Shown here: positions 2,446 through 43,788 of the stretch, in pieces
How positions within the stretch are numbered: position 1 is the stretch's first letter
How the letters are laid out: every line of letters begins with the position of its first letter
Assembly (NCBI GenBank): GCA_963971425.1
Contig: OZ020517.1
Location: forward strand, 436,501-500,500
DNA from: Bryoerythrophyllum caledonicum
Lineage: Eukaryota > Streptophyta > Bryopsida > Pottiales > Pottiaceae
Direction of reading: 5' to 3'
DNA length: 64,000 bases
Translations under genes and position numbers: made by a program
Notes under the pieces: model-generated
Database searches by the model: none
The model's input: only the letters and a program-made list of their open reading frames with translations
What the model was told of the DNA's origin: nothing

Positions 2446-2769
2446 CTTTTCCCAAGGGTATCCCGAGGGTATCTCGGGAGCACCACACGGCCACAGGGTT
2501 TCGACCCTCACGGCTTTAGGTGCACCCATGAAGTCCAACAAAATCTGGGCGCGAGCATTTTTTTCTCCTCATTTGGTTGCTCACCAGGTTTTCTGTGTGT
2601 TCTTCTCCGCGTTGTTGTTTTGTGCATTTTGTGCGTTTATTTGTTGGTTCTTCGTTGAGACTTTGTGGTTTGTGTTTGTTTCGTTAGCGAGAGGGTTTGT
2701 TAAGTTTGTGATAGGGTTTGTTAAGTTTGTGATACTGTAGCGCTGAGTTTAGGCTTTCGTGCGCAATTT

Positions 2770-3579
2770 ATTGGAGGTTAGGGTTTCCTGCGGATAGGGT
2801 TTGTAGGACGTGCGATTTTGTGTTGTGTGAGTTCGCGTATATTGTAGCGCTAGAGTTTAGGGCTGTTTGTGTGAGAGTGTTTGAGGTTCTGTGAGTTTGT
2901 GAGAGTTTGTGTGAGTGTGTGAGTTTGTGTGAGTTTCTCTGAGTTTCTGTGAGTGTGAGTTTAGGAGAGTTTCTGTGAGCTTTTGCGAGTTTCTGTGAGT
3001 GTGTCTGAGTCTCTGTGAGCACGTAGAGTCTGAAACGGCCGTGCGCGGAGGATTGACGCGAACAAGGAAGAAGACTTGCAGCAATTTCAGTCCAATTCCT
3101 CAGTTTTAAAGGTAAGTGCACTCATTCATTCTTGCATTTCTTTTGATATTAGTGTAGTTTTGCTTTAGATATGATGTATTGACACATTATGATAGCATTG
3201 CTTTTGATGTATGTGTGAGAAAATAGATGAGATTGTGTCTTCAATGTGGTGGTTTGAATGTGGTTGTTTGTGGATATTTGTCGTGGTTTGTGCTAGTTTA
3301 AAAGTGCTGGTTTGTGCTAGTTTAGATGTGCACATTGAAGTCAATGTTGTGGTTTCAATTGCTAAGTTCAATGTGCTGAATTCAATGTGTTGATTTCATT
3401 GTGCTCATTTCAAAGTGCTGATTTCATTGTGAATGATTTCAATGTGAATGATTTCAATGTGTTGGTTTCAATGTGCTACTGTGATTGATTTTGTGTGTGG
3501 GTTTGTTAGTGTTGTTGCAGGACGTCTAGTTCCAGCAGAATTAGTCTGGGATTAAGGTTCGTAATCAATGGCTGAAAGG
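2770..3579 (+). other. Probable 5' leader exons and leader intron of the ParB/MTase-like gene
   Basis: A GT-rich leader (degenerate GTGAGTTT repeats, about 2855-3010) ends in a strong donor, AAAG|GTAAGT at 3112. The matching acceptor TTGTTGCAG|G is at 3520. The second leader exon, 3521-3579, contains the only good start, ATG at 3569 (Met-Ala-Glu-Arg), and closes with AG|GTAAAA. The intron 3112-3520 carries TTTCAATGTGCTG-like repeats but none of the TTTAGCTCGA palindromes found further down. This is inferred from splice signals only, and no transcript was available. Confidence 0.5.
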
Positions 3580-3687
3580 TAAAATCCATTTTCTCACCCA
3601 GCAGCCCTAAACCCTACGCCTTCAATATCATAGAACGAACAAAGAATATCCACAAACTGCAATAAATAAGCTCTTCAAAGAACACAG

Positions 3688-4160
3688 TTTAGCTCGAGTC
3701 GAGCTAAAGTGGAACATCGATATTGCACTAATGTCCACACTTTAGCTCGACTCGAGCTAAAGTGGGCCTCTACTGTGCACTATTGTCCTCACTACAGCTC
3801 GAGGTAAGCTCAAGTTGGCCTCTACTGTGCACACTGGGCCACACTTTAGCTCGAGTCGAGCTAAAGTGCGCCCTCCAGCATGCTCTATTGGCTACACTTT
3901 ACCTCGACTCGAGGTAAAGTGTGACCAACAAAGCACGCTGGAGAGCGCAATTCAGCTCGATTCGAGCTAAAGTGTAGACAGTAAAGCACAGTAAAGGCCC
4001 ACTTAAGCTCGAGTCGAGATAAAAAACCGCTAACTACGTCTTTGGTTGCGCTAACGCCGACTCTAGAAAAAGTAATCATAAATACAACTCCTGAACTCTG
4101 AATCAAAAAATACATGAAATTCCAGAAAAGCCATCACACTTTACCTCGAATCGAGCTAAA
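3688..4160. repeat. Cluster of eight TTTAGCTCGA-type palindromes in intron 1
   Basis: Copies lie at 3688-3708, 3738-3764, about 3791-3815 (decayed), 3842-3868, 3894-3922, 3951-3971, 4003-4023 and 4140-4160. Spacing is roughly 40-60 bases, then looser. The copy at 3894-3922 has the arm TTTACCTCGA with the matching change on the other side, so it is again a perfect palindrome (29 bp). The sequences between the copies share a loose theme (tactgtgcac, cactattg), which suggests that the array grew by duplication of ~55-bp units. Confidence 0.9.
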
Positions 4161-4496
4161 GAGTAAGACAGAGAACATAAACAACAACTCAAACACAACA
4201 ATATTCGGACTCTAATCATTCCAGAAATAAAGTATACCAATGATAACTATGACTTAACTCATGTCAACTTCTCGTTCACCTATCACAAGTGTGCAAGAGC
4301 TTAAAAACCGCTCCAACCACTTGAGAGCCTCGATGAGTGAGGTTCGTGATTGATTGAAGCGGAACTGAAGCTCTTCCACAGTTCTGAGAGTTGAAAGAGA
4401 AGTAGCCATAAATTAAATTAAAAAGTCTAGTGATGTCGTTTGAATGATCAATGATTGTGTCAGGTCTAATCAGCTATGCATTCTATGTATAAGCAC

Positions 4497-4844
4497 TTTA
4501 GCTCGAGTCGAGGTAAAGATGAAGCTAAAGGATGAATACAACAATGTTACAGTCCTGTATTTGCAGTCTAGTATCTCAACTCATGTCTACTTTTCGTTCA
4601 CCTCTCATAAATCGTGCAAGTGCTTCAGTCCCGCTCAAACCACTTGAGAACCTCTAAGAGTGAGGTTCGTGAGTGATTTGAGCGTGAATTGAAGCTCTTC
4701 CACAGTTTTGGGAGTTGATCATGAAGTAGGCATGAAGTGATTTAAAGGGCCTAAGATAATGATCGAATTGAATATATTATGTTGCAGACTATTATTCACA
4801 TACTTGTATTTCACTACACTTTAGCTCGAGTCGAGCTAATGTGT
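4497..4844. repeat. Two further palindromes in intron 1
   Basis: 4497-4517 is near-symmetric (one arm GCTCGA, the other CGAGGT). 4816-4844 is symmetric over 29 bases except for one outer pair. Between them, 4560-4740 partly repeats 4250-4400 (cttctcgttcacc.., cacttgaga.cct), so the intron contains a ~300-bp direct duplication around the palindromes. Confidence 0.8.
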
Positions 4845-4914
4845 GCCCTCGGCGTCCTAATCGGATGATCATATGAGAAATCTAATATCTGTGCTCTGTT
4901 TCGTGTTTGTGCAG

Positions 4915-6361
4915 GTCTGAGAAGGACAGGATGGTGTCTCAGCTGCAGCACTTCTTCCAGCCTAAGCCCGTCGACATTGATGATGACGATGGAGACGACA
5001 ACAACCACTTGGATTGTTGGGAGCTGAAGGACCCATCAATGACACTGAAGTGGACGCTACTGTGGGCGACCTATACGGATCATTTAGTGTTTGGTCAGAC
5101 CTTCGTTGGTCCTATCGTCGATCCCCAGCACATCGACTTCAAGGCGAAGATTACTGATGTAGTCCACGAAGACAACGATCACGTTAAGTTGTCGTGTGAG
5201 ACGACCACTGAGTCCTTAGATCCGTATTTATTTACTATCGTAGTGGACAATAGTTCATCTCCCTTCTGTATCCACGATTTAGTCGATTCTCTTAGGTCGT
5301 CCAAATTTGATGAAATTGTAGCTCAGGTCGAGCATGAGATCTCTCTTAAGAAATGGGAGACTAGTAGCGGACAGCCGCTGAAAGCAAAGGCTGTAGCTAA
5401 TAAACTGCGCGTCATTCTATCTAGAATGAGTACCTTTGCCGCTCTAGATAAGGCCAAGAATATCGCGGCAAGACGACCGATAGAACTATCAACGGTTTCG
5501 GGGGCCGTGACCAGTAGCCAGGACATGAGTCAAGCGTCGGTACCGGTGAGAACACCAGGTGCGAGAACAAGCCGAAGCACCCTGCGCAATACGCTGTCTG
5601 CTTCCCCCGTGAAGAAGCGGTCAGCTGCCAAGAAGCCGGAGACCTCTTCAAGAAAGAAGTCGAAACTCGTATCAGAGGAGGAGTTAGCCAATTCGATGGC
5701 CTCTGCACTCTCGGAGCTCCCTAAGGCGCTCGGATACGGAGAGACAATCGACTACAACAACGTCCAACAGATTTACCAGAAATTCTGGACGGAGTGTTAG
5801 AGCTGCTTCTTCAAAGGCGACCGAGAGATGAAGATCGAGCTTGACGTGATGAGGTTGCATAATGCACCTCCAGAGTGGACGATCCGTGCGTTCGAACCTC
5901 GAGGCATGGAGGAGTTGAAGCATTACTACCTCCAAATGCCCGACAAGACACAGAAGCAGACTCTTTGCGTCATGCCGAAGCTCGACGCTATGCCGACGAC
6001 TCTTGAGGAGCTCAACGACTGTGACTACTACATCATCAATGGCCAGCACAGCGTTGCTGCCTCAAAGGAGATGATAAACGGCAACGTCCCGGAGGTTATG
6101 AGAAGGCACTTCCGAACATGGCAATGTTACATTGTCTGGACTCAAGATCCAGAGAAGCTGAGGAAGATATCCGCATATTATAATCGCGTGAATCACTTGG
6201 TCCAGTTCAAGCCGACGTGGGCAACCAATATCCTCGGCTCTCGTGCTTTGTGGATCCAAGCTGGTAGACCAATGCCCAAGCACTCCGCCACGGGCGTTCG
6301 AGGGTCTCACAAGTCAGGTCGGAGAACTGCAGCTGAAATGGCCAATGACAAGAGGTTTGAG
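4915..6361 (+). CDS. Exon 2: N-terminal region plus ParB/DGQHR-like domain
   Basis: Acceptor TTTGTGCAG|G at 4914 completes the arginine codon begun in exon 1. The first ~300 residues start with an acidic patch (DIDDDDGDD) and a globular unknown segment. They end in a lysine/arginine/serine-rich tail (SPVKKRSAAKKPE) that could be a nuclear signal. After an in-frame TAG at 5798-5800 the frame continues unchanged. The region 5828-6361 contains DYYIINGQHSVAASKEMI, which resembles the signature loop of ParB-like and DGQHR proteins (known to bind nucleotides or DNA), followed by RTWQCYIVWTQDPEKL and an N/Q-rich helix. The exon ends GAG|GTAATA. An alternative is that 4915-5800 and 5828-6361 are two proteins in one mRNA, but there is no intergenic signal. 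Confidence 0.6.
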
Positions 6362-6384
6362 GTAATATATCTTAACCAAGGTCA

Positions 6385-6510
6385 TGCACTTTAGCTCGAC
6401 TCGAGCTAAAGTGCAAATTCGCTCTGTATCTGTACAGTCATCTGTATAGATAATGAGTCGTCATTGTCTACTCTTGGTATGCAAGTTAGCTCGAGTCGAG
6501 CTAACTTGCA
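6385..6510. repeat. Two perfect 31-bp palindromes in intron 2
   Basis: 6385-6415 and 6480-6510 are each perfect 31-base palindromes with an odd central base (C and G respectively). Their inner halves are identical (TTAGCTCGA), but the outer arms differ: TGCACT in one and TGCAAG in the other, each mirrored exactly on the far side. Compensated differences of this kind show that the symmetry itself is maintained. They sit 65 bp apart in a 227-bp intron. Confidence 0.95.
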
Positions 6511-6588
6511 GTATTTGGACGCTACTGGACATGTTTGTATTCCTGCTTTAATTGTAAACTCAAACGACCCTTTTTATATTCTGCGCAG

Positions 6589-7406
6589 CCATTTCTTAAC
6601 GCGGTTCGTGAGCGATTCGCAATGATTGACGTTGCGAAGAGCCAGGCGGCGCTCAAGAAAGCCGGGAAGGCGAAGGAGCTCTCAATTACGAATGAGGTGA
6701 AGATCATCACCGCGACAGATGAGACCTTCAAGCTCTGGTCGGACGTCATCTCTTCCGCGGTGCATGGCGACCTCATCAACGTGGATTCGACTTCGATGCC
6801 CTTGGCAAAGTTCAAGGACGCGAAGTCTTGGGTGCCGGAGAAGGATGGGGTCCTTACGCACGAGTTCTTCAAGTTTCTCGGCAATATGACCGAAGCCGAT
6901 CACGCGAAAATGTGCAAGCACATTCTCAATCGATCAGGGCCATCTCGGAAACTGCCCTACCCTAAGGTGGTTATAAAGATGCCGAATTCTACGCTGGAGG
7001 ATTGCTACACGGCCCGGGATTGGGTGGATCGGAGGAAGAGGAAGGAGGTCGCTCGGATGGAGCTTCAACTGATCAGGCCGGAGCTGGCCTTCTTCAACAG
7101 CGCTGGAGGGTACAGTCGTTCAAACTGGCGGACGTTCAAAAGGAACTACAACGTCAGCAAGGCCTCAAAGCGTGCCCTCTTGGATTGGGGACCACCGGAT
7201 TCGTACTACGCAAACTCGAGGCAGACGCAGTTTCGCAACTGCAAATGTGAAGATCTCTCTCCGTATGCGAAGGAGTTCTTCAGAGTCTTCATCGATGTGC
7301 GGTCGCGGTTCGTTCCACCTGTGGGAGCCCTACACTTCCGTTCTTACAAGGCGGCAACAAATTCGCTCGGGACGTGGCCTTCGCATTTGTGGCGCAACCT
7401 GGGATG
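6589..7406 (+). CDS. Exon 3 (5' part): methyltransferase-like region with GPPD motif
   Basis: Acceptor TTCTGCGCAG at 6588 joins ..RFE to PFLNAVRERFAMIDV. The segment is alpha/beta in character and contains ALLDWGPPDSYYANS at about 7170-7210. This is comparable to the catalytic DPPY (motif IV) of N4/N6 DNA methyltransferases, but with the final aromatic replaced by Asp. In beta-class enzymes motif IV precedes motif I, and that is the order seen here, since an FGGTE segment follows at 11830-11850. The reading frame is interrupted at 7406 by an inserted element. Assignment to DNA methylases is by motif inspection only, and the altered motif may mean loss of catalysis. Confidence 0.5.
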
Positions 7407-7934
7407 TGTGGAACTCCGTTTCCACATGTTGCCGAAAGTTAACTTTAAATCCGGTTAAAACAAAAAAAATTAGTTAAGTAGTTATGATGGTTTCCACTAG
7501 AATTCATCCAATAGTCGTCAGAAAAGAATAATGACGGATGGATCAGGTTGCGAACCCTAATTAAGCCAAAATCTGTTAAAATCGGAGCCGGAGCAGTTAC
7601 CGGTTTTCCGGGGCGGACAGTTATTCGGAACCGTCAGCCGGAACTGTCGCCATCAACTGTCATCATGACTCCGTACTAACTGCCGGACTACTTAAGGCTG
7701 GGATTCGGGAGGAGAACTCTTTTCTTCTCCATTCCTTCGTCGCGTACAGGATTTTCGTCTTCAGGCTTTCTTCCTCTCCCTCTTTCACTTCCTCGCTCCC
7801 GGTTCCAAAACTCTGACCGTTAGGGTTTGAAGCTTAGACGGATAGAATGGACGTGCGTCCGTTAGGGAGTGCTTTTGTGAGGACGGTGCGTGCAGGGACT
7901 ACCTTGAGAGACGGTGAGGATTTAGGAGGCCCTC

Positions 7935-9995
7935 ATGAAGACTGTACCGATGGCAAAGAAGAAGAGGACGGATAGAGACGGGCGCGGCAAAAGAGACGAA
8001 GAGCCGGCCGCGGGACTTCCCCCTTTGGCCCGAGTCCTTCTGGACATCCCCGAAGACCTGGACGAATTCAACCTCCTGAAGTCGAGCCTGAAGACTATGG
8101 GGTGCGAAGGGTTGCTCGAAGTCCCCTGGGGTATGCGGGAGGAGATCTACGTCCAGGAGCTTATCGGCGCTCCGGACAAGAAGTACTAGGGGTTACTGAG
8201 AGCCCATCCGGAAAACTGGGGAGTTCCGGAATGGTCCCAGGCGTACGACTTCCGGGGCGGACGCACCAAAGTGGTGGAACGGCGAGACGAATTCCTGGTG
8301 GACGAATTTGCGAGTTCGGCTGACCCAAAGGACGGCTACAACATGCAGGACCTTCGGCATCTGGACGCCCAGCTCGTGCTAGGGTTTTTAAACCCTATTT
8401 TCCATCCGGAAAAACCAAAGCGGGTGGTGGCGAAGTGGGCCTGCACCTTCCTCGGGGCGCTCCGGAAGAAGATAGTAGTGGATTGGGGAACGCTTATGAC
8501 GGACATGATCAACCGTCTAGTAGCCAACCTCCAGAGGGTGAAGAAGACGGCAACACCCTTGGCCTCCTATGTGGTGCACCTCTATGCGCACCACCAGCAA
8601 CTCACTACGGCGGAAGTCCGGAAGTACGATACCGTCTTCAACTTCCAGAAGTACGGAGGGGACGAGTCTGAAGAGGAAGAATCCGGAGAGGGGGAGCCAG
8701 CGTCGGAAGCAGCCACCACCAGCACTCCGGAGGGCCGGAAGGTCCCAAAGAGACCTCGGGGGAAGGAACCTGCGACGGAGAGTCCGGGCATCCGAAGCTC
8801 CTCTGCATCATCCGGAGAAGACGAGTCTGGACCCTCAGAAGGGACCAGCCGGAAGAGGAGAAAGGTGGACCGGGACGACTCCAAGGGCCAGCTCAAACTG
8901 ATGGATGAGCTGACCCGCGACATTGGCTGGAGGGTTGGGCTCCTCAAGGAGACCAACTACATCATCACCAGCAGCGTGGAGCAAATCTTCCGGAGTCTGG
9001 GCGTCGAACGGCTGGAGGACGCCATTAACCGGGTGGAAGAACTCCGGAGCCGGGAGGTGGGCACGAAGGCGTTGCACACTCAAATCGCCTCTCTATACAA
9101 GGCAAGTAACGATATGGAGAGGAAGATGAAGCAGTATCTAACAGAGGCGGCTGTAGCGGTGACGGCCCGGAAACTGGCCGAGGAGAAGGCCAACGCTTCC
9201 GCAGCGGCTTTACTGGAAGTCCGGGCCTTCTTGGACCTACCGGTCGACGTGGTCAACCGAAGCCGGCTCTTCACCGAGTTGGTGGAGAAGAAGGAGAAGG
9301 TCACTCGGGCCAACATCATCCGGTTCCTCTTTGACCAGGCTGACAAGATGGGAAGGACCTGGGAGCAGATGAAGGTGCTAGTCAACAACATTGTCGTCGA
9401 ATTTCTGGAAGAACCTGCAGCGCCTGGACCGGAAGGCACGCCGACCCCAACTCGAACAACAGCCACTCCGGAACCACCACCCAAGACCACCCCAGCGCCG
9501 GGAACCTCCGCGAACCCGGAGTCCCTGGATACCCCGCCACGGACACCGGCGGAAGGGATCGTGCCCCCTAACCCGAGTACCAGCGAGATCCTGAAGACAC
9601 TTCCGGATCTCCTGTCGCCACCCACTATGCGGCTTCCAGATCCCCCGACAGAGGGCGGCCTTCCAGCTCCTCCAAGGTCAGTGTCACGAAGGTTAGCATC
9701 CGGAGCCAGGAGTCCGTCCGGAAGCTACAGGGACTTGGTCCAAGAGACCGGGTCAGTTTCCGCGGCAGGCACCCCAGCACCTCCGCTTTCGGAAGGATCT
9801 CCGGCCCAGCCCCCTCTACCCCCGGACGCCCGGTCTCCAGGGGTGGTTGTTCCCTCACCAACCGGCCCAGCCAACAGGAAGACCAACCTTTCGCCGGCGG
9901 CTTCAAAGAAGGCAAAGGGTAAGGCGCGCGTTCCGGTGGAGAGTTCCCCCTCCCGCCGGAGTGGGAGAAATCGGGGTCCCGGTGCTCCTACTTAG
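7935..9995 (+). pseudogene. Gag-like / plant-transposon-type protein of the TGTGGG element (one in-frame stop)
   Basis: A frame of about 687 codons has a single TAG at 8187-8189 and is otherwise open. The N-terminal ~230 residues form a conserved helical domain shared with the two other copies (MGC.GLL...WG, RAHPENWGVPEW, LRHLDAQLVLGFLNPIFH, KPKRVVAKW). The layout resembles the 'putative plant transposon protein' domains found in gag-like ORFs. Next come an acidic/basic linker with a possible nuclear signal (SRKRRK), a coiled-coil-prone stretch (about 8890-9400) and a Pro/Ser/Thr-rich tail with many TPxP repeats. No CCHC knuckle, protease or polymerase is present. The ATG at 7935 and another at 7950 are both possible starts. 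Confidence 0.6.
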
Positions 9996-10813
9996 GGTAA
10001 AACTAGGTTGTAAGTTTCTTTTTGTTAAACACTTTTTCTCAGGGTAAGAGTCCGGATCAGCAGCGACTAACGATGGGGCCCCAAGTGCACCCGGCTGCTA
10101 CCGGAATCAATAGCCAGGTTTTGTTAGAGAAGGAAGTCCGGAGTCCAGGAACTGTTCCGAGATTTTAGGATCTGAGATCCGATCTGGGACTTTTCCGGAT
10201 TTCTTGGATCTTTTAGATAAGATCTAGCGGATTTTCCATAATCATAGGTAGAAGGAAATCTGAATTTAGAGAATTCAGAGAGTATTTAGTAGGAGGTTTT
10301 TGGGAAAAAACCTTCGTCTTGTTCATCTCACTCGGAAATATACGTTACCATTTGCTTCACCAGATTTGCTACCTTGTGTTTTTGTGGGGCGTATGAATCC
10401 TGTGAGTGACGGATCCTTTCTGGAGGGTGTGGTTGTGTGAGGACTTTTCCGGACTAGAATAACTCACTTATTTTGCCGGAGGGGGAAGTTATCGAGGGTA
10501 GTGTCAGGAGATCGCCCGGGAGAGCTGGAGAGAACTATTGCAGAGGTGTTCTTGGTAGTTCCCAGGGTCCGGAAGTAGCCAGGAGGGGAAGAGATGAACT
10601 GCAGAGGTGTTCCTGGTAATCTCTAGTTTGCGCGGGAAACCGCGCTAAACTGATCTCCGGTCAATACCGGAGTTCTCCCCTAAGAGAGGAAGAAAAAGCT
10701 TGATACCAGTACCTAGATAAAGTAACCATAGCGAACCGTGAGTCTCTGATCCGGAAAATTACAGTCATACCCCCCGGAATGCCGTTGTAGCCGGGTTAGT
10801 CTCTGTGTGACCG

Positions 10814-10835
10814 CATCCGGAAGGCCTTCCGGATG
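10814..10835. repeat. Perfect 22-bp palindrome conserved between TGTGGG elements
   Basis: The half-site CATCCGGAAGG is followed by its exact reverse complement. The same 22 bases occur at 51795-51816 in copy 2, in the same relative place near the 3' end and with conserved flanks (GACCG before, TCGTGAGAGT after). It lies downstream of the coding frame. Confidence 0.9.
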
Positions 10836-11320
10836 TCGTGAGAGTCGAAGTCCGGCAACAACAGTCAAATTACCAGTTAGCATAGTAGGAAGAGTGTTGT
10901 TTGGTCACTCTAAGAATCCGGACAGTGGGTACCTAGCCACTTTAAGTCACAGGGTAGTGGGAAACCCAACCACTTACACAAAACCGGGTCAGTGGACTTC
11001 GGCCACTCGTTTAAAAACTCCAGGAGACTCTCTGAGGAGGAACAGAGACTAATCAAACCACCCTCCTGATTTCCGGAAACCCAACTCCGGAAACCATTGT
11101 ATAGTATCCGGATCCGGACGGACCCGGACCTAATATAAGTGATAGAGAACTATAGCTAATTCGTAATTGTATTATTTCGGTAAGACTAGTAATCTGGGGT
11201 ATTGGAAGAAGACATTTAGGTCTCTGTGGGAACGAAACCGGAGCGGTTACTCTGGGAAGCTCTTAGTGACGATTAGGAGCATTCCGGAGGAATACTGTCT
11301 CTACGAACTGCAACAGGGTG

Positions 11321-11870
11321 CAATGTGAAGCTCGGCATCATCGACTTTCGGAACATCCCCGGGTTCTCTATGACGGCAACGTCGTCGTTGGAGAGGCCCT
11401 TCTTCGACGAGTTCATGACGATGTTCGCATTGAAAGGGCAGCCTCCACTCACCGATCTTCCAGCCTGGCTCTTCATTTGCGGCAACAAGCAATCGCACCT
11501 TCAAGTGACAGCGTTTGCTGAGGGCCTGTCCTTGTGCCATGCCTATGATTTTCTGCAGTCGAAGTATCTTCCCTCCGAGAACGAGCGCCTAGGAGGTTAC
11601 CAGCCAAAGACCATCAACGCTCTCGACCCGGTTCGGCTCCTCTTTCTCTTCAAGAGGGAGCTTACAGTGATCTCGGCCATTAAGAAGATCTACGCAGCTC
11701 CAGAGCATGTCTTGTACACGAAGCTGCGCAAATACAACGAGCTGGCGTACTCCATGAATTTAAACGAGCTTAGGATGGAGTTCTTCATCAAGGTCCTGGA
11801 GCTGTTCTGCAAGAAGGGGGATTCTGTTGTCCAGCTGTTTGGCGGGACGGAATTACTGACTACGAGTGTG
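11321..11870 (+). CDS. Exon 3 (3' part): methyltransferase-like region with FGGTE motif
   Basis: This continues the frame broken at 7406 and ends at GTG|GTAAGC (11870). The last 25 residues read VLELFCKKGDSVVQLFGGTE, which resembles the glycine-rich SAM-binding motif I (D.F.G.G) of DNA methylases of the beta class. The preceding ~150 residues (LPAWLFICGNKQSHLQ..) are unassigned. Confidence 0.5.
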
Positions 11871-11883
11871 GTAAGCATCCCTG

Positions 11884-12119
11884 CAGTTTAGCTCGACTCG
11901 AGCTAAACTGTTGATACCATTTCTGACTCGTGCGTAGTTTCAATGAGGTCATGCCTATGCTGTTGCGTGACACATTAGCTCGAGTCGAGCTAAAGTGTCG
12001 GCTTTTACTTGTATGATTTTCTAGAAGTCATCACTACGTTCGTATCCTTTATAGTTGTAATAGCTGAGTTTTTGTGCCATCAATTGTTTGTATTGAGTTT
12101 AACTCGACTCGACCTAAAT
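11884..12119. repeat. Three palindromes in intron 3
   Basis: 11884-11910 is a perfect 27-bp palindrome whose arms start CAGTTTAGCTCGA. 11969-11999 is symmetric over 31 bases with one mismatch. About 12097-12119 is a decayed copy (TTTAACTCGACTCGACCTAAA). All three lie inside the intron between GTAAGC (11871) and GTGTGCAG (12148). Confidence 0.9.
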
Positions 12120-12148
12120 TGAATCTTGTTCAATCCATTGGTGTGCAG

Positions 12149-13088
12149 ATGTTGGACCTGGAGGCATTATGCATTTCACACGACACCGATGAGCAGGATC
12201 TCGATGACGCCGTGGAGGTCGCGTTGACGTTGGATTGGGCCAATCACGTCAACGCGGAGATCTTCCCCGAGCTTGGAGAGGCCGTTGGAAAGGGGAAGGG
12301 GAAAGCCATTGTTGACCTCGGCGAAGAGGAGGAAGATGCGGAACCAAGCGTCGTGGTTGCGTGCCCGATCTCGAGCACCGCCACTCCGGAAAATGAGTCC
12401 CAGGACGACTTCGTTGACGCTACTCCGCCTGAATATCAGAGTGCCTCTCAATCTGAAGCTGGAGACGCAATCGCTTCCTCGCGACAATGACTCGACTTCC
12501 CGGAGTTGGATTCGTTGGAGATTTCCGACAGGCCTCATTCAGCTCCCACCTTGGGCGCTTCATCCGCTCGTCCGGCGGCCAAGAAGAGGAAGGTCGCCAA
12601 CGCGAGCGGACACTCTCCGTTGGCTGTTGCGAGCAGCGCTCAGGATGAGAGCAGGTTGCCCTCCCTTGAGAAGAAGCTCGAAGAGGAGGCCACCCGAATG
12701 AGGCTGATGGAGCAACGGCTGGCGGAGCGCGACGAGGAGCTCAGGGATCTGCAGCGAAGGCGTGACGATGAAATGAAGAGGGACCAAGATCAGAGGCATG
12801 CCGAGATGATGCTCATGATGTAGAGATTCATGTCGGCTAATTTGCCTGCTGCCGCCACGACACCGCCCGTAGTTAATGCTGCGATCCCCGTGCCTCCCGC
12901 CTCACCGGACGGCAATTCTGGGAGTACGTCTCGCGATTTGCAGCTACCATCTCCGTCGGGTACCTCCCCCGTTTCCAGTGGGGCTCAATTGCTTCCTGTT
13001 CTCCCATCCCCTTCGATCCGCCCCTCTTCCCCCCCGAAGTCGCCCGCTCGGGACGAATCTATCCATGATGTCCGCAGCTCATCGTCAG
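12149..13088 (+). CDS. Exon 4: acidic, coiled-coil and Pro/Ser-rich linker
   Basis: The exon opens right after the acceptor (MLDLEALCISHDTDEQD..). It then contains an acidic stretch (GEEEEDAEP), a basic cluster (AAKKRKVANA, a plausible nuclear localisation signal), a strongly heptad-like region (LEKKLEEEATRMRLMEQRLAE, about 12665-12800) and a Pro/Ser-rich tail. In-frame stops TGA 12488 and TAG 12821 interrupt it. It ends TCAG|GTTAGT. Confidence 0.5.
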
Positions 13089-13192
13089 GTTAGTGTAACG
13101 TAGTTGCGAGTGTACATAGTCAGATCATTTTGTAAATGTCCAATTTTGTACTCCAGTATATTTTTGTGAATATTACAGTGCAGGGCGAGCAC

Positions 13193-13213
13193 TTTAGCTC
13201 GACTCGAGCTAAA
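13193..13213. repeat. Palindrome in intron 4
   Basis: One complete 21-bp copy (TTTAGCTCGA, central C, exact mirror) sits about 70 bases before the acceptor at 13284. Confidence 0.9.
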
Positions 13214-13701
13214 CTGCTTGAAATCTAACCACTGTGTCCTCTGTGTGCAACCTCTGATAGGGTGCAGTTGTTGAATTTTTTCAGATCTAAGTTTCGGTGA
13301 TGACGCGATTGCTCACCCAGTCATAGATGAGGTCGTCCAAACTGCAGTCCCAGTCATAGAAGAGGTCGTCCAAGTTCCGCCCGTGCTCGTAGACGAGATC
13401 AATCATGATTCTGCTGTCCCGGAGCCTCCTCTTCTTGTCCCAGAACTGTGCCTCCACATGGATGTCGGCCACTGCGGGCTCCTTGACAGCATGCAGAATT
13501 CGTTGGGATCGATGGGTGCCCGAGACGAAATGCTGCGGGACGATGAAGTTCTCGAGGTATTCTTCTAACTCTTTTTGATCTCCACTCTTTCCCCATTTCA
13601 CTCCTCCCCCCATTAACCTCTTTTGTTCTACGTATTGTTGATTTGTCGTTGTTATTGAATCTGTAGTAATATTGGTCGTTCTCCTGGCATTTCCGAACCA
13701 G

Positions 13702-14496
13702 GTCGGCGAGGCATCAATAAGTGGTGCCAGTAATTTAGAAGAAATACCTAGAGTCCGTTCTGATTCCGATGGCAGGTGGTTAAATATTGTGCTGGACCTC
13801 AATGGGGTTCTATACACGTGTGAGCCGTCGTGGCAGGCCAGAGGATCCAGGAACTCAATCCCGTCCATTCACTCGGCTTCGCTGCCGGCCGAAGTAGGCC
13901 CTAAACTAGTTCAAGTGGGCCCTGGTTGTGTTGAATTCCTCACGAAGTTGTCTAAGATTGCCACCATCACGATCTGGAGTTCGATGATGGAATCTACAAC
14001 ACGTCAGATATCTCAATATCTTTTTCAGCATAGTTCTTCGTACCCTCTTAGGATCTTTGGTCAGGAGAGTTGCGATAGGGTTCCCGAACGTAGAGTCGGT
14101 AGCAGAATTATCTACATGAAGGAATCTGGCACTTAGAAGGACATCTTCTTGAAGACCTTATCGAGCCATCTCTTCAATAGGTTGGGCCGTGAGTATACTC
14201 CGGCAAATACGCTTGTCATTGACGACAACCCGATTAAGCACATGCTCAATTTGTCGGAGAACGTCCTTCTTCTTCCATCATGGTCGCACAAACATGTTGG
14301 CGCGAAAGACGATTCTGTATTGTTGGAGGAATTGTTGCCATATCTCTTTGACCTTCATCAGTTTTCGGGTGGCCTAGCACAATACCGGGCCGAACATCCC
14401 TCTGGCCGGGAGATGTTTTATAATGATCAGAAGACGTGTGGTCAGTCTGCAAGTATCTGGAACGCAATCCAAGCCTATCAGAATCTCCGCTCTTAA
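13702..14496 (+). CDS. Exon 6: FCP1/NIF-type HAD phosphatase-like domain
   Basis: Acceptor CGAACCAG|GTC follows a short exon 5 (13285-13556). The domain shows NIVLDLNGVLYTCEP (the HAD nucleophile loop with the second Asp replaced by Asn, as in many plant DLNG-type members), FLTKLSKIATITIWSSMM and NTLVIDDNPIKHMLN (the IDD motif of FCP/SCP phosphatases). After an in-frame TAG at 14134 the frame continues to a natural TAA at 14494. Plant proteins of this kind are known as NLI-interacting-factor-like. Loss of the second Asp makes catalysis doubtful. Confidence 0.65.
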
Positions 14497-14524
14497 TGCC
14501 ATTGGGAACGCTTAGATGCCTATT

Positions 14525-14552
14525 ACACTTTAGGTCGGGTAGAGCTAAACTG
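14525..14552. repeat. Decayed palindrome downstream of the HAD exon
   Basis: CACTTTAGGTCG... and ..AGAGCTAAACTG flank a partly scrambled centre. This is the first copy after the stop codon and lies 29 bases downstream of it. Confidence 0.6.
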
Positions 14553-14767
14553 TATCGATTGGCTGCAGCTCGATTTTGTAAATTTTGTAGGACCATTTCT
14601 GTGTATATATTTTTTTTGATAAATGATACTTAGTTGTTTCACCACTTTGTTTTGTTGTGGGGATTGGATACCTACTGCTGATGGAATGTCGTGCTATTTT
14701 GAATGATTGGAATTTTCATCTATTGTTCTAAGGTATGTGAGTGTCGCTGTGGTTAATATTTCTACAG

Positions 14768-15619
14768 GGCTGTGAGTGTCGGGCGTCCGTGGATTCCTTG
14801 CTGGGCCCAGAGGAGTTTGTCCTTTCTCTTCGGAGTAAAGGGCTTTTGTTGCACTCTGCTGCAACCGCGCAATCAACCATGGATTATTCGACCATGGCAG
14901 TGGACGACGGAGTTGTTGAGAGCCCTATTGCGCGGGAGCCAATTCATGAAAGGAACAACTCACCTTCGCCGCAGTGGCCTCGTTCAGTTCCTGGGTCCCC
15001 GCCTTTAAATCCGGATAAATGTACTCCAGCAAAGCGTATTCTCTATGACGGTTTAAGGGATGGTACTTCCCAACGCTTGCTTGCGGTGCGTGTTGTGATG
15101 ACCTCCAATTTATTGCAGTATTGAGATGTTTTGGCCTAGACAATTTTGGTTTGTTGTTGAGCTACATTGCACTAATGTAGTTTTGGTTCATTTGAGCTTG
15201 TTTTTTTTTCGTTGGAGGTTAAATGTGCTCTGTGGATCTTTCCTTCTGCATTTTAGCTCCATTCGACCTAATTTGCGCTAGGATGTATCTTAATGATTCA
15301 ATTTTCATGTGTGTTGTGTAGGAGTGGTTGACCTAAAGTGTATTTCTTTGGATTGTGTGTGGCGCCTACTGTGCAGGAACCATCCGTTAATTGTCTCCGT
15401 CCCCGTACTCTTTCAGGAAATGCTGCTAGAAGCAAATGCTCTCCTTCCCCCACCCGCCGGCACTCGCTGCCCAAATCAAACAGTGATGAGGTGCATAGGC
15501 GGGGTTTGCAACGTCTTCTAGAGAGTCCATTAATGCAAGAGAATGGCGCAACATGGACAAGGCAACGTCAGAGGGCTTTTTTGAAGACGCGTATAGAGGC
15601 TTATGGTGGAACTCCGTAG
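14768..15619 (+). CDS. Two-exon unknown gene or 3' exons of the fusion gene
   Basis: Acceptor TTTCTACAG (14767) opens a frame GCECRASVDSLLGPEEFVLSL.. that ends at GCG|GTGCGT (15085). Acceptor TACTGTGCAG (15376) opens the second block, EPSVNCLRPRTLSGNAARS..., ending with TAG at 15617. The protein is Ser/Pro/Arg-rich with a basic, helical C-terminus (TRQRQRAFLKTRIEAY). I do not recognise it. The intron holds a decayed palindrome (15248-15276), so it belongs to the same transposon. An AATAAA lies at about 15701. It may be an alternative 3' end of the fusion gene. Confidence 0.4.
15248..15276. repeat. Decayed palindrome in the last intron
   Basis: The copy reads TTTTAGCTCCA and its imperfect mirror TTCGACCTAATTT. 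It is the rightmost member of the family within the large transposon. Confidence 0.5.
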
Positions 15620-15865
15620 ACCATTTGATTAGTGATAGGACGATTGTGTTTTGGCTCGGGGTGAACGAGTGTTGTTTGTAACTTTTTTCATGAAGTTTTG
15701 AATAAAGCTTGGAATAATGGTATATGCTTCTTTTACCGTTACCATTTTTTGGGACATTCGGCTAATTTGGTCCATCCATGTAATGATATATAGTATTCTT
15801 GGTGCATTGTCGATATGCTTTGCACCTACGATTGTCTATATATATTGATACTTCAAAGATCATAT

Positions 15866-15910
15866 ATCTTCAAAATCATGGAAATCTCCCAATCTAACGA
15901 ATATGGTGTT
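15866..15910. repeat. Right terminus of the large transposon
   Basis: Reading inward from 15910 the end is AACACCATATTCGTTAGATT, then GGGAGATTTCC and CATGATTTTG. Both ends of the MITE at 19121-19524 begin with AACACCATATT(C/T)GTTA and carry the same GGGA...TTCCAT segment. Confidence 0.75.
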
Positions 15911-18494: not shown

Positions 18495-20765
18495 CCATTT
18501 ATCACAAGCATTTTGGAGGAGGTTGCTGGCCATGAATGTTACACTTTTATGGATGGATACTCGGGATACAATCAGGTGTCCATTGCTTTGGTGGATAGAC
18601 ACAAGACGGCATTTACAACGCCGTGGGGGACGTTTGTTTGGCATGTTATGCCATTTGGCCTTTGCAACGCCCCTACCACCTTCTAGAGACTGGTGATGTC
18701 TATATTCTCTGATTTGTTGTACAAATCGATGACCGTATTTATCGATGACTTTAGTATACAGTCGCACAAGGAAAATCACTTGAAATTGGTCAAAGAGAGC
18801 CTTGAGAGGTGCAAGAGGTCGCAAATGGCGTTAAACCCTAAGAAGACTTACTTGGCTGTGAGTAGAGGCGTGTTATTAGGCTATGTGGTGAGCAAGGACG
18901 GAAGGGAGCCAGAGCCAGAGAAAGTGAAGGTTAAGCCTTAAGCCACCAATCAATGTGAACGAGGTCCAACGAGTGTTGGGTCATGTGGGTTGGTATCGTG
19001 AGCTCATACATGATTACGCCACTATTACTCTATCCATTACTAAGTTGTAGCAAAAGAACAAGTTCAATTGGACGCGAGCATGTGAAGTGGCTTTTGGCAA
19101 TGTGAAGGAGATGTTGAGCAAACACCATATTCGTTAATTTGGGAGATTTTCCATCTCCCAATTTAATGACAATTTAGGTCGAGTCGACCTAAACTATACC
19201 CACAGATTAGGTACTTCACTGAAACTGGACAAAACAACCAATCATTGAAATATTCAAATGGCCATAACTTACTCAGATTTTGTTCAAATTGGGCATGTGA
19301 GGTGTTTTTTGACATCTACAGATACATCAGATGTCAAAAAACACCTCATATTCCCAATTTGGACAAAATTTGAGTAAGTTATGGCCATTTGAAAATTTTG
19401 ACAATTGGTTGTTTTGTCCAGTTTCAGTGATGTACTCAATCTGTGGGTACAGTTTAGGTCGACTCGACCTAAACTGTATTTTCCCAAAATCATGGAATTT
19501 TCCCATTATAACAAATATGGTGTTAGCACATATCCTGTGTTAAGACCTCCACGATGAAGGATGCCATTTCATGTTTATTGCGACGCCAGTGCTCTGGCAG
19601 TGGGTAGTTTTCTTTGTCAACCAGTATAGGAAGAATCCAAGAGTCGCGATTATCCCATTGCCTATGCCAGTAGGTAGTTAAATCCTGCTGAAAAAATTAT
19701 TCCACCACAGAGAGGGAGTGTCTTGCGATGGTATTCTCAGTTAAGAAGTTTCAACACTATCTTCTCAGTCATGAGGTAGTTTTCTATGTGGACCACATGG
19801 CGATTAAATACTTGGTCAACAAACCAGAGTTGAGCGGTAGATTGACAAGGTGGGTGTTACTACTTCAAGAGTTTGATTATACAGTCGAGTATAAGCCTGG
19901 TTTGGCTCACAAGCACGCTGACCATCTATCTAGACTTTTGGAGGATCTAGAAACCTCTTCTATCGATGATGATTTAGTAGATGAGGCCTTGTTTCTAGTC
20001 ACCGCGCGTCCGTTGTGGTATTCAGGGATTGTCGAGTTCCTCACCACCCAACAGTTGTCTCCCGAGTTATCCAAGGAAGAGCGTCGGAAGATTCGTGTGA
20101 ACAGCAAGCACTTAGCGGTGTTGGAGAGCTGCCTCTACAGACGAGGATTGGATGGCGTTCTGAGACGTTGCGTATTGGAAGGGGAGGTTGAGTCGATTCT
20201 CTCAGCGTGCCACGACAGTGCTTGTCGTGGTCATTTCTCTGGCCAATTAACTGGACAAAAGATCTTGCGAGCTAGTTACTTTTGGCCCACTCTATTCGAG
20301 GATGCTCACATGTACGTGAGGAAGTGTGATGCTTGTCAACGTTTTGCTAGAAACGATCTTCATATGCAATTATCCTTGTATATCTCGTTGCCTCTAGTCC
20401 CCTTTGAGAAATGGGAAATAGATAATGTGGGCAAAGTCCACCCCCATTCGTCGCGACGGATGGCTTACATTGTAGTTGCCACAAAATACCTCACCAAATG
20501 GACTGAGGCAAAGGTAGCTCGCTCCAACGATGCGAAGAATGCGGCAGTGTTCTTGTTTGAGAATGTGATTACCAGGTTTGGAGTTCCTAAAATTCTATTT
20601 AGTAATCGTGGTACTCACTTTCTTAATGAAGTGATTGAGGCAATGACAGAGAGATTTCAGATTGACTATAGGAAAACCACTCTCTATCACCCTCAAACAA
20701 ATGGCCAGACTGAGAGAGTCAATCAAACCCTAATACCGCAGTATGGCTTGGCCCGTACTTGGTGA
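18495..20765 (+). pseudogene. Ty3/gypsy pol remnant: reverse transcriptase, RNase H, integrase
   Basis: The RT block 18495-19120 has TFMDGYSGYNQVSIA, KTAFTTPWGTFVW and MPFGLCNAPTTF, plus FIDDFSI as the FxDD active site. RNase H (19529-19930) includes CDASALAVGSFL and YSTTERECLA. Integrase (about 20050-20765) has a partly recognisable zinc region (GHFSG..., KCDACQRFARN) and a core in which the second catalytic Asp is Asn (FSNRGTHF). It keeps the Glu region (HPQTNGQTERVNQTL). Stops at 18684 and 18939 and others, and the abrupt end after 20765, show it is dead. A MITE splits it at 19121-19524. Confidence 0.85.
19121..19524. mobile_element. 404-bp foldback MITE related to the large palindrome-bearing transposon
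   Basis: Two arms of about 190 bp are near-perfect reverse complements around a centre at about 19322. Ends are AACACCATATTCGTTA and its complement TAACAAATATGGTGTT. Target duplication AGCA (19117-19120 and 19525-19528): deleting the MITE plus one AGCA restores the gypsy frame as EMLSTYPVLRPP. Each arm carries one palindrome of the TTTAGGTCGA type (19173-19193; 19448-19478, the latter a perfect 31 bp). It has no coding capacity and is presumably mobilised by an autonomous relative of the large transposon. Confidence 0.9.
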
Positions 20766-25107: not shown

Positions 25108-25848
25108 TTTGGGGTCTGCGAGAAGCAATCCTTCATCAAGAACGGCATTGCGAAATACATTGACTTCTGGAAGACCGGCATGTCCCGCGACAAGCGATAT
25201 GCCGAGGATATGGCTCCCTATATTTCGTACTGGGAGCATATTCTACATCTTATTTCTGGTCCACTGCAACCAAACCCGGAGTCTGTTCATGAAGGATTCT
25301 TGCCTATATCGGACTGGACTCGAGACCATGCTCGCAGCTCTACCGGGCCCATTGACGTCAATGGCATTCCCAACATTACTCATGAGGATGACCTCAATCC
25401 ATATCATTTCTGTGGCCCTGAATTGAGCCGTCCAAAATTGTCCTTCAATCCATATCGAGACGTTTTACTTGGGGATTTTGTTCTCTGTCGTCCAAGCACC
25501 AGACATTACCTTCCTGTCTGGATGGGCCGAGTTTTTGAGTGCGTGAATCTTACTCCAGGAGATTGCTATGGAATGTTTAAAGTCGAATGGTGGATACCTA
25601 TGACAGGGAAAAAAGAATCCAAGAAGGTTGTCGCCAGGGAGTGCTAGACCGGGAGATGGCAAAAGGAACCTTGTCTTCCTGAGGTAGTGGACTGCAAAAT
25701 CGTTCTGTACTCTCACCGCTTTCCATCCCATTCAAAGAAAGGTCCGCCGAGTTTCCACCGTATTCCGCCGGAGGCATGCAGCGCTGCAATTGCATCATTG
25801 GAGGCTGTTGGCGTTTCAGTTAATTGCGGTGATGAATGTGTCGACTGA
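25108..25848 (+). pseudogene. Unknown protein fragment with a barrel-like C-terminal domain
   Basis: One frame reads VCEKQSFIKNGIAKYIDFWK.. through to a TAG at 25645, and resumes in frame (TGRWQKEPCLPEVVDCKIVL.. SLEAVGVSV) to about 25848. The middle contains LLGDFVLCRPSTRHYLPVWM, GRVFECVN and MFKVEWWIPM. This pattern of alternating hydrophobics and Trp resembles BAH- or chromo-type barrels, which often form the C-terminus of plant transposon-associated proteins. No catalytic motif is present. The family is not recognised. Confidence 0.4.
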
Positions 25849-26354: not shown

Positions 26355-29300
26355 CAGTCTACCCTTTTTAAATGATACCTCTATAAGTGTTATTCCTCGA
26401 TAAGTGTTACGAAAAATCTCGCTCCCGAAAAATTAACACTACTAAGTGTTATGTGTTAAGTGTTAACACATTCTCCGCTCCCTCCTTTGTTAATTTCACC
26501 TCGATAAGTGTTATTTTTGAGAAAAACGACATTATACATCTAATACATCGAGGCCATATTTATTTACACACTTTTATCTATAATCCCATAACTTTTGTAC
26601 TTAACTTGTTGCATTTTCTATTGAAATATGAAGTGGATATGGAGTTTAGGGTCTCTTTGGTTGAATGTCATTTAGTGTTTGAACATTGGAGGGGGTTTGG
26701 AAGAGGTTTTTGGGAGAATTTGGCGAGTTGAAATTGGAGTCGGGACAGGGAGTTAAGAGTAGGAGTCAGGAGGCACGAGGTCTGCAGTCGAAACAGGGAC
26801 AAGTCGGAACAGGGAGTCAGGTCCAGGGAGTGTGCAGTCAAAAACAGGGAGTCGGGGTCCAGGGGGTCGGGGAGGGGAGTCGGCAGGTTGGGGCAGGGAA
26901 GGGAGTCGGAGTAGGCAGGGGGGGTCGGGGACAGTTTGCTGTGTTTTCTTTTTCTTTTTTTTAATTTTTAAAAATCTATTGTTGAATTAGTTGGTGTATC
27001 GGATCATGTGGATCAGTTGAATCACTTGGTGTATGTGCTGCATTTGATTCATGTGGATCTGTTTTCAAAACATTGGGAATCTGCACAAACTGTAGGTATG
27101 TTGTATTTTTTGAATTCTAAAATCTTATTACTCATTGTCCAGCAGGTAGTTTTAGGGTAAATGATTGATTTTGTGTCTTATCACGCCCTACTAATTTTCT
27201 CCTTTGTGCTTTTGAAGGGTTAAACTTTCGAGTGGATTAGTGGAAATATCCATTGAAGAACACGGTCAAAGTTCAATTAAGTCGAATTTTACTCCTGAGC
27301 AATTTAAGGATTCTATCTTGCGAGTGAAGTAGAACATATTGGCCGTGAAGGAGCACATTTGTTTTTTTGGCACAAAAACATACCAAAGTTTGAATTGTGA
27401 GTCGGGAGAGTCTGGGAGGGGAGTGGGGAGAATGATACTGCAGGGAGGCGAGTGGGTTTAGGATTTAGGGTGGGTAGTCTGGAGAGGGATAGGGAGAGGG
27501 GGGCCTCAATCAAAGATGAGTTTACCAGTGTCTAGCATTGGGCGTCCGCCAAGAGTTGCCACGGTCAAGGGCCGTGAATTTACATTACATGAGCAACAGG
27601 AGATCATTTCTTATCGTGAAGAGATATTGGCTTCGGGTCACAAAATTACCAACAAAGCATTATGTAAGTGGGCGAATATGAAGTTCAACAATATTGCTTC
27701 TCAAGTCACGATTGGTAGATTGTTGAAACGGAAGACATCGGTGACTTCTATTGGTTTGGGTGATATGGGTACTTCCAAGCGTATGAGGAAGGCACAATGT
27801 CCGGAAGTAGAGACGGTGACTTTCAATTGGTTTGTGAGAATGCAAGAGAATGGTGTTGCATTATCGGATGATCTTGTGATAGCTTCGGCAAAGAGATTCT
27901 ATGCATTATTACCGAGAGATGAAAGTGAGAAGGAACTTCAGTTTTCGAATGGGTGGGTTGAGAAATTCAAGAGGAGATTTCAGATCAAAGGTTTTGTCCG
28001 TCATGGAGAAGATGCTTCAGCGGATACTTCGCCAGCGGTTTTGCAGCAGATGGAGCATATCAAGGCTATAGTATCTACATACGACATTAAAGATGTTTTT
28101 AATATGGATGAGACTGGTCTTTTTTACAGATTAGAGCCTAATCGAACTCTAGCTACAAAACGAGTGTCTGGGAAGAAGAAACAAAAAGAGCGCATTACGG
28201 TGGCTTTGACTGCAAATGGGGATGGAAGCATTTGTCTTCCTCCATTAGTTATAAATCAGTATTTGAAACCACGAGCATTTACTTCAAGGCATATTTCAAA
28301 TCCAGAAAACTTGGGCATTACGTGGTTCGCGAATAAGAAGGCATGGATGACAACAACAATCTTTGAACAATTTATTATGGATTTTGAAAGGAAGATGGTG
28401 TTGGCAGGAAGAGAGAAGGTAATTCTCCTTGTTGATAATTTCTCTGGTCATCAATTGCCAACTGTAGCTTCACGGTTGAGGGTGACAAAACTTTTATTTT
28501 TGCCTCCAAATACAACAAGTCGTTTCCAACCTATGGATGCAAGCATTATAGCCTCTTTTAAGGCTCATTACAGGAAATCAGTGATAGAGCATCAATTAGA
28601 ATGTGTTATGGCAGAAAAAGAATTCAAAATTGATGTGTATCAAGCAGTGATTATGGTTGAAAGAGCATGGCGTTTTGGGGTTACAGCTCAAACAATTAAG
28701 AATTGTTGGAGCCATACGGGTATTTTTTCCAATGTTGTAGTGAATCAGGAAGAAGAAGTTAGCCGTCTGACAGAGGTTGCTGAAGTGGCGGCCTTGCTTG
28801 AGCGATTAACATTGTTATCATCTGAGACTGAAGAAGATGATACTATGGAGGCTCAGGAGTTCATTAATTTTGAGCTCGAATTTGATTTGAATAATCCTTA
28901 TCAACCCACTGATGAGGATATTTTAGACTATCTACCCATTGAAGATCAAGATTGTGATTTAGATGAGGATATGATAGATGTTGAAGATGTGATAGGGTTT
29001 AATGATGCAGAGCGTTGCCTTGAGACTGAAGAATTTCTTGCAACAAGGATCGGAGAATGTTCATTCGGATGTGAAGAATTTACAAGATCTACAGAAGAAA
29101 ATTTGCAATTGGCGCATGAAAGATTCTCGGCAAACCACAATAGATTCTTATTTTGAATCAACATAGTTGATTTACTATTCATATTTTTTTGTACTTTCGC
29201 TATTTAGTTTTATAAAAGTTTTGAATCTATGTTTGACGTCTTACAAATTGAATCTTTGATATTTATATGCAATTATTTTCTAAGTATTCTAAATATTTAA

Positions 29301-29632: not shown

Positions 29633-30899
29633 CACTAACATCAATACCTCTTCCGCCATTCAATCAGGGTCAATTGGGGGCCGACAAGATAGACAATAGG
29701 GTTACGGGCAGAATCTCCAGAGTTCCAAGGAGAACTTAGGTTTGGCTCAGTAAATGAACTCACCACCCTAAACCGAGTGCATATTATGTCAAAGTTGCCT
29801 ATTTTTGCAATTTTATGTCCGGATTTTCACATCAATTTTGGCTTAAGGTTCTTCATTTCCGTCCATAATTCACCGTTTTTTCCATATTTTGTTAAATATC
29901 CGTTATGTCAATTTGCAAATAAGGACATACAAGTAGACATTTGAACATTTTTGGAAGGGCCTATATTTCAAGTGGCCAAGTTTTGGAATTGTAGAAAAAC
30001 ATTAACCCTCTAACACCGCGGGATTTCTGACAACAATGGTGGAGAGGCCCATTTTGGGCATCTTTGGCGTTAAAGGGTTAAAATATGCAATTTATGGAAT
30101 TTGGATATTTTGATGGAATTTGTTTGACCCCTCCCCTTGTCTACTTACTATTCTTATTTCACCCCAATTCAAGAGGTTGAAATCTTGGTACCGAAACTCT
30201 CAAAAAGTGTTGCCATGTAAACATTTAGGAGGCCGTCACCCCTTAGACTTTGGCCTCAAGTGCAAGGACCGAGTGACCTATTTTGTGCTTTGGTCCAATT
30301 AGACTGCTAGAATCGCTCAACCTCTCAAACTCAACCCAGGTTAGTGTGAAGAGCTCCAGACCTGACCAAAACTTGAAAGTGTGCAGTGTCCATCCAAAAC
30401 GCAGTCCCAAGCAAGTTGGAGGCTACGCAAGCTGTAGCCTTTCCACGTTCTCATGCACGAGCTGAAAGCCGCACCCAGATGGCAGATGTGTGGATGGAAT
30501 CACTAGAATCGTTGGAAAATTGTCCATCTGTGTACAGATATTCATGGTCGGCAGAGTCTGGATGACTTCTCAGGTGTTATTCCCTTTTGTCATATCCTGT
30601 GAGGTGCACATCGTGCAACAATTTGACAGTTTCAAACGGTACTAAAAGTATCCACAATGAGGATAATTCAAGCTTGTTGCCAGTTTGCGGCTTGTGGACA
30701 TGATGAGAGAGTAGGCAATCATATCAGCATCGACATTTGTAAGGTGTCGTAACGTATTGGCGAGGAATATGTATATGATTCTCGTTGTCCTGGTCACGGA
30801 AAACAACGTCTTGAAAAGTAACTGAGCACACCATCTTTGTGAGCAGATGAACGTGATCGTCTTCGCTGGATTGCGTGCTATTGGTGGGATGTTGTGATT
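29633..30899. other. No supported gene
   Basis: AT-rich to about 30100, then mixed. A short inverted pair TTAACCCT...AGGGTTAA lies around 30003-30081. Other frames lack recognisable content. Confidence 0.35.
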
Positions 30900-30908
30900 G
30901 ACTGAGCC

Positions 30909-31590
30909 CCCGGTCACTACAATCAATCCGGGTTTGCGGTGTCAGGGCCCGGTTTTAGGCCTGACACCGCGAAGAGCGGCCCTTCTCCCATAGCGCCTTT
31001 TCGCCTTTCTTCCCACGATAACGTCCACTCTCGCCCACATTTTTTTCGCGCTGCCCGTATCTGTTATCGGCATTCTCGCCGATAGCCCCTTCTCCCCCCG
31101 CCTTCTTCGGATCACCGAAAGCCACTTCTCCCCCGCCTTCTTCGGATCACCAAAATCCCCTTATCGCCCGGACACGTGTACTCCAGGGGAGGGACCCGTC
31201 CTTCTCGGCGGTTGCGAACTGCCATCCGCATCGTTTGTTTCGGCGTCATCTTTGGCACGATCATTGTGCCGTGTAGAATCCTGCCGGAAGGGGAGTGATT
31301 GTCTGCGCCTGAATTGAGTTCCTCGATCTCAATCTCCCCATACAAGATAGGTCGAATGGAGATTCTAGCGAGACGGCGCCTCCAACCGTTGCCGATAACG
31401 GGGCAGCAGAGAGGAATTGGAGGCGTCAAGGGAGGAAGAAAGAAGCTGGCGTGCATGAGAAGGGGGTGGAGGACCTTGATGCCGCGTTTAGGGTTGGCCC
31501 GCATGCAGACTACCTAAAGAAACACGGTCACAAGGTTCTTCGGATGCGCGATTCGGAGGAATGCAATCCAAGCTTATCGCCTACATTCCT
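30909..31590 (+). repeat. Left terminal inverted repeat of the Mutator-like element
   Basis: It begins CCCGGTCACTACAATCAATC and runs as the reverse complement of 43033-43779 to AAGCTTATCGCCTACATTCC. It contains a decayed copy of the transposase first exon: the ATGGAGTTCCTCGATCTC of the right arm is TTGAGTTCCTCGATCTC here. Because that copy has lost its start, only the right arm can begin the transposase. Confidence 0.9.
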
Positions 31591-43779: not shown

Positions 43780-43788
43780 GACTGAGCC

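Follow-up and report, generated by a model that had tools for sequence, protein, structure and literature searches.

A family of long palindromes in a moss DNA transposon suggests that a plant mobile element may carry a clamp-and-site system like those of plasmids

Binding sites carried by transposons are already known. The plant elements En/Spm and Ac/Ds have subterminal transposase-binding repeats, which are short motifs near the element ends. Among bacterial systems, the ParB relative KorB silences promoters from distant operators with the sequence TTTAGC-G-GCTAAA (PMC11790492), and in one survey the most common eukaryotic ParB fold was sulfiredoxin (PMC12704722). The Sola superfamily of transposons is described as having 4-bp target duplications, terminal inverted repeats (TIRs) of 11-1124 bp and some elements over 15 kb, and Sola1 has been reported from the moss Physcomitrella (PMC9033089, PMC10741241); some Sola2 elements are known to have captured an additional gene (PMC3627910). 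Here, we describe a truncated copy of an approximately 18-kb DNA transposon in 64,000 nucleotides of the moss Bryoerythrophyllum caledonicum (assembly GCA_963971425.1, contig OZ020517.1, C4:436501-500500, hereafter the window). The transposon has two genes, and its non-coding parts hold a conserved family of palindromic DNA sites, some thirty per element.

A search for TTTAGCTCGANTCGAGCTAAA with up to 3 mismatches gave 19 matches in the 64-kb window, compared to 0 in 100 shuffles. Seventeen lie between 3688 and 15272 and two (19173 and 19453) lie in a miniature inverted-repeat transposable element (MITE), in agreement with a first-pass annotation of this DNA that had noted about 17 copies at 3.7-15.3 kb and none elsewhere in the window except in the related MITE. 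One extra degenerate palindrome, centred at 3803, brings the window element copy to 18 sites. The element, its first gene and the sites are as follows.

2454-15910, + strand: gene 1 side of the ~18-kb DNA transposon, a truncated copy (blastn homology to copies E1 and E2 ends at 2454)
15900-15910, - strand: TIR of the large element, AACACCATATT; the right terminus reads AATATGGTGTT
3569-14497, + strand: gene 1 (inferred model; exon translations match copies E2-E4)
3569-3579, 4915-6361, 6589-7406, 11321-11870, 12149-13089, 13286-13557, 13703-14497: gene 1 exons
14768-15086 and 15379-15620: further conserved exon-like stretches of gene 1
7407-11320, + strand: long terminal repeat (LTR) retrotransposon in a gene 1 exon, where homology to other copies breaks; flanks GGATG/GGGTG
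3685-4026: array of seven palindromes in intron 1, centres 3698, 3751, 3803 (degenerate), 3855, 3908, 3961, 4013
4137-4163: palindrome in intron 1, centre 4150 (pattern search)
4494-4520: palindrome in intron 1, centre 4507 (pattern search)
4817-4843: palindrome in intron 1, centre 4830 (pattern search)
6385-6415: palindrome in intron 2, centre 6400, 31 bp, 15/15 pairs
6480-6510: palindrome in intron 2, centre 6495, 31 bp, 15/15 pairs, outer arms changed (TGCAAG)
11884-11910: palindrome in intron 3, centre 11897 (pattern search)
11971-11997: palindrome in intron 3, centre 11984 (pattern search)
12095-12121: palindrome in intron 3, centre 12108 (pattern search)
13190-13216: palindrome in intron 4, centre 13203 (pattern search)
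14526-14552: palindrome directly past the stop at 14494, centre 14539, in 3' flank or intron
15249-15275: palindrome centred at 15262, flanked by the last two exon-like stretches (pattern search)
19121-19524: MITE, a non-autonomous relative with the same termini; 4-bp duplication AGCA
19170-19196: left subterminal palindrome of the MITE
19450-19476: right subterminal palindrome of the MITE

As the first-pass annotation had claimed, coding exons hold none of the 18 centres (5,395 nt of inferred exon, 3,490 nt non-coding; random-placement P 5e-8). Inferred introns hold 17 of the 18 (10, 2, 3, 1 and 1 per intron), and two inferred introns of this copy have no palindrome. The further claim that the sites are confined to one gene's introns did not hold: related element copies also carry them in intergenic space and flanks, so the sites are best described as non-coding rather than intron-specific. 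Much of the intron 1 array (3798-4018) also forms a 221-bp inverted repeat with 110-nt arms that are 78% complementary, and the spacers between its palindromes are partly inverted copies as well.

Across the 437-Mb genome, the palindrome pattern gave 17,453 matches, compared to 10 for the reversed pattern. The palindromes are thus common, but they are clustered: the matches listed include 79 distinct exact places, all from the first 21 Mb of contig C1, of which 76 have another listed place no more than 18 kb away, and the one of three solitary listed places that was fetched (L002) is element sequence. The expected link to elements with AACACCATATT ends was upheld, in that every fetched place compared was an element copy or a MITE. 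Outside the MITEs and the window copy, every element copy used is from contig C1 and was chosen for its exact sites, which biases the set toward intact palindromes; two of these copies, E2 and E3, are 97% alike, and dN/dS was taken over copies other than E1. Copies E4 and E5 have both ends and measure 17,771 and 18,086 bp, with AACACCATATT at both ends in a TIR of about 29 bp with mismatches, and with 4-bp flanks on both sides (ATTT in E4, TATG in E5). The window copy lacks the gene 2 side, and its match to the fetched copies ends at 2454. Thirty-three sites could be aligned in at least 4 element copies, with the same positions occupied in different copies. They lie in gene 1 introns and on its 3' side, in the intergenic space, where there are 69-bp-spaced pairs, and on both sides of gene 2, with a 47-bp-spaced array upstream of its reading frame and a 72-bp-spaced pair downstream.

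Within the intron stretches compared, conservation is highest in the core of the palindrome. We profiled 11 single sites found in the window by scoring the other copies, with the window excluded. On either side, identity was 0.92-0.94 within 1-3 bp of the centre, rose to 0.97 at 4-9 bp and fell to 0.90-0.92 at 10-13 bp, and the centre itself scored 0.75; at 14-15 bp it was 0.92 on one side and 0.75 on the other, and flank bins ranged from 0.71 to 0.83 (about 0.79 overall). The half-sites are therefore constrained and the centre is not. The core letters are the same between sites, between copies (0.97 vs 0.79 in the flanks) and between genomes, and mainly the outer positions and position -2 covary between arms, which contradicts the earlier proposal that symmetry is kept independently of sequence. 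Successive sites of the intron 1 array are spaced 53, 52, 52, 53, 53 and 52 bp apart, a mean of 52.5 bp or 5.0 turns of 10.5 bp. Conserved letters, a free centre, two-fold symmetry and helical spacing in this array together point to a dimeric protein on duplex DNA, and of the possibilities raised in the first-pass annotation this is the one we retain as best. We consider it very probable that the palindromes are bound by some protein of the element or the host, and we lean toward a dimeric protein made by the element, with the gene 1 product as the likeliest binder.

Two regions of gene 1 bear on this assignment.

5801-6361, + strand: region homologous to the predicted ParB fold, motif NGQHSVAAS (Physcomitrium homologue P0002)
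13705-14493, + strand: NIF/FCP1-like phosphatase domain (PF03031) close to the C-terminus (E 5.4e-9 and 5.5e-5, one value for each piece flanking an in-frame stop)

When compared with PDB, the predicted structure of the Physcomitrium homologue P0002 has a ParB CTPase fold; the region after it, considered as a possible palindrome-reading HTH domain, is helical, with low model confidence. In the ParB-fold region of gene 1 the nucleotide-binding box is altered. Sequence comparison did not place the protein in the ParB family: ParB models in Pfam (5 proteins) and NCBIfam (4 proteins) gave no match at E up to 10, and hhalign to ParB gave 0.1%. Four gene 1 introns were checked in copy E3. The window gene is broken by in-frame stops at 5798, 12488, 12821 and 14134 and by the LTR insert. 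Three of these four early stops (5798, 12821 and 14134) are TAG where E3 has glutamine, which is what C-to-T change in a CHG context would give. The LTR retrotransposon family has a second copy at 51294-54569, in opposite orientation to that at 7407-11320 (inverted matches 77-98%).

In our view each site consists of a pair of inverted TTTAGCTCGA half-sites separated by a single free base. A dimer or clamp would load there and either control the element's genes or keep the element in one piece. Such a layout would be like that of parS or KorB operators: one array sits within gene 1, in its first coding intron, another precedes the reading frame of gene 2 and is probably intronic as well, and further sites are scattered. 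New sites may arise from tandem duplication and could accumulate in non-coding positions; any outer arm positions left unread by the protein may have stayed symmetric through template switching at hairpins during the element's active period. The sites, the element with its two genes, the conservation footprint and the covariation are observed, whereas binding by a protein, the choice of protein and the purpose are inferred. We speculate, with considerable reserve, that this is a eukaryotic ParB-parS-type system in which the element's own nucleotide-switched clamp, with some thirty palindromes to load at, spreads from arrays at both gene starts, silencing or tethering the element in the manner of KorB on plasmid RK2. 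If true, a mechanism of bacterial chromosomes and plasmids works in plant nuclei, on a transposon.

Alternatively, the sites could be transposition enhancers, comparable to subterminal repeats, that are bound by the gene 2 protein or a host factor, a possibility we regard as real though doubtful. The gene 2 product is a presumed DDD transposase: D415 (30/30), D540 (29/30) and D582 (30/30) are conserved, and in the gene 2 model two of them directly follow strands and one is in a helix, although the acid-bearing part of the predicted structure had no PDB match. A solitary open reading frame (ORF) stretch at 25135-25626 resembles the gene 2 protein over its C-terminal part (E 2.5e-9 by tblastn). 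One locus (L001) has sites on both sides of gene 2. The MITEs also support the enhancer explanation. From 1,809 first-look candidates we scored 40 places and fetched 30, counting the one in the window; in 30/30 loci the MITE, which lacks both genes, has retained a single site near either end, its centre about 60 bp in. The MITE end at 19139-19161 contains another small palindrome, TTGGGAG...CTCCCAA, and the large element has a similar one where gene 2 lies. In E4 and E5, however, the sites nearest the ends are about 320-650 bp inside and have 2-4 mismatches, and most sites are deep inside the element.

A role of the palindromes as RNA hairpins in pre-mRNA, acting in splicing, retention or small RNAs, would fit the location of 17 of 18 window sites in inferred introns and the covariation of arms between sites. 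We judge it improbable, given that sites also occur in intergenic space and MITEs, that two inferred introns lack them, and that the conserved letters include centre-adjacent bases that a hairpin leaves unpaired.

The palindromes could also be a mutational pattern alone, with cruciform or hairpin template switching keeping accidental, functionless palindromes symmetric. Template switching is described as producing compensatory changes and, in perfect stems, loop inversion without a trace in the stem (PMC8794818).

In the 20 window sites, 7 cells at positions -13 to -1 were changed alike in both arms, 4 differently and 32 in one arm. Contrary to the first-pass annotation, arm changes are therefore not usually matched, but matched changes still exceed expectation (7 vs 2.5 by permutation, P 0.007; 4 vs 1.4 without the MITE, P 0.04, and P 0.05 also without 3803). 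Covariation is strong among the consensuses of 33 sites, aligned over element copies: arms matched at 158/198 of positions -15 to -10 compared to 126.6 permuted (0/5,000), and with one site per array (19 sites) at 86/114 compared to 66.9 (0/20,000). In the latter set position -2 matched in 15/19 (vs 12.0, P 0.008) and control positions -18 to -16 in 15/57 (vs 13.9, P 0.43). The permutation leaves in place any effect of sites having descended from one another, and array sites are related by duplication and possibly misaligned between copies; the 19-site set, hand-picked to be free of repeats, gave the same result.

In the 19-site set and in the comparison over copies, rows with more than 8/37 differences from the site consensus were dropped. 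Copy-private changes were 240 one-armed, 9 alike in both arms and 4 unlike (3,291 cells), so the symmetry is mainly ancestral and present copies lose it mostly through changes in single arms. With two more copies added, 13 changes were alike compared to 7.9 by within-site shuffle (P 0.018; 35 sites, two apparently misaligned). The centre changed between C and G in 28/191 rows over all sites, with arrays possibly misaligned, and outside arrays in 8/99 rows compared to 41/2,500 at other C/G positions of the non-array sites (P 4e-4); these eight rows represent about 5 to 7 independent events. In the last single intron site of E3 the centre is flipped and the unequal outer bases kept their places, and among 60 MITE sites no centre was flipped. 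Hairpin-type events may thus leave a trace as excess C/G centre flips, and to this extent the earlier suggestion of hairpin-templated copying survives. As a complete explanation, mutation alone seems very unlikely: it does not account for identical core letters across sites, copies and genomes, and the conservation footprint, the predominance of one-armed changes and the unflipped MITE centres all weaken it. With many sites, many copies and readable centre flips, the moss family would be a testable case of symmetry upkeep in long palindromes. Finally, an independent small palindromic mobile repeat inserted into non-coding parts of the element would fit the many copies and the non-coding location of every window site, but is scarcely credible given the shared positions in different element copies, the clustering of the exact places listed, and the lack of any fetched, compared place outside an element or MITE.

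The window contains other features. An uninterrupted pogo/Tc5-type transposase ORF occupies 27462-29153 (PF03184 E 2.5e-39, PF03221 E 1.6e-12). Long inverted repeats at 30896-31554 and 43165-43792 (87-92%, about 12 kb apart) enclose ORFs with the look of a SWIM zinc-finger protein and a Ulp1-like protease, judged by their motifs; the unit is probably a Mutator-like element. On the minus strand, 47284-49485 is a 733-codon ORF, presumably a DYW-type PPR protein, with an internal duplication (303-bp-spaced, 91% identical).

In the open-licence literature we found no plant transposon with a ParB-fold gene and this many long palindromes. Sola, compared by description, resembles the moss element in the DDD-type acid pattern of the latter's putative transposase, its TIR and size, which are within the Sola ranges, the AACACCATATT repeats at both ends of E4 and E5, and its 4-bp duplications, which are perfect and of no fixed sequence in 26/30 fetched MITE loci and are also seen in the E4 and E5 flanks; the Sola descriptions consulted do not mention a ParB-fold gene or palindrome arrays. 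En/Spm and Ac/Ds share multi-copy short sites for the element's own protein, whereas the moss sites are long palindromes found all through an 18-kb element, with helical spacing in the intron 1 array. Template-switch maintenance of hairpins resembles some moss centres in loop inversion without a trace, but it was described for RNA genes, and in the moss sites the stem letters are conserved too (PMC8794818). ParB-parS, Noc and KorB-OB have in common with the moss element a ParB-fold protein, predicted in moss, and multi-copy palindromes on one mobile element. The moss site has KorB-like outer halves, TTTAGC/GCTAAA, with TCGA on each side of the centre, a short match that may be due to chance. 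The moss site is longer (27-31 bp, compared to 13 for KorB and 16 for parS), and the moss element is eukaryotic, with an altered nucleotide-binding box. Taken with the predicted fold, these likenesses suggest that a clamp-and-site system of the plasmid kind may exist on a mobile element of plants.
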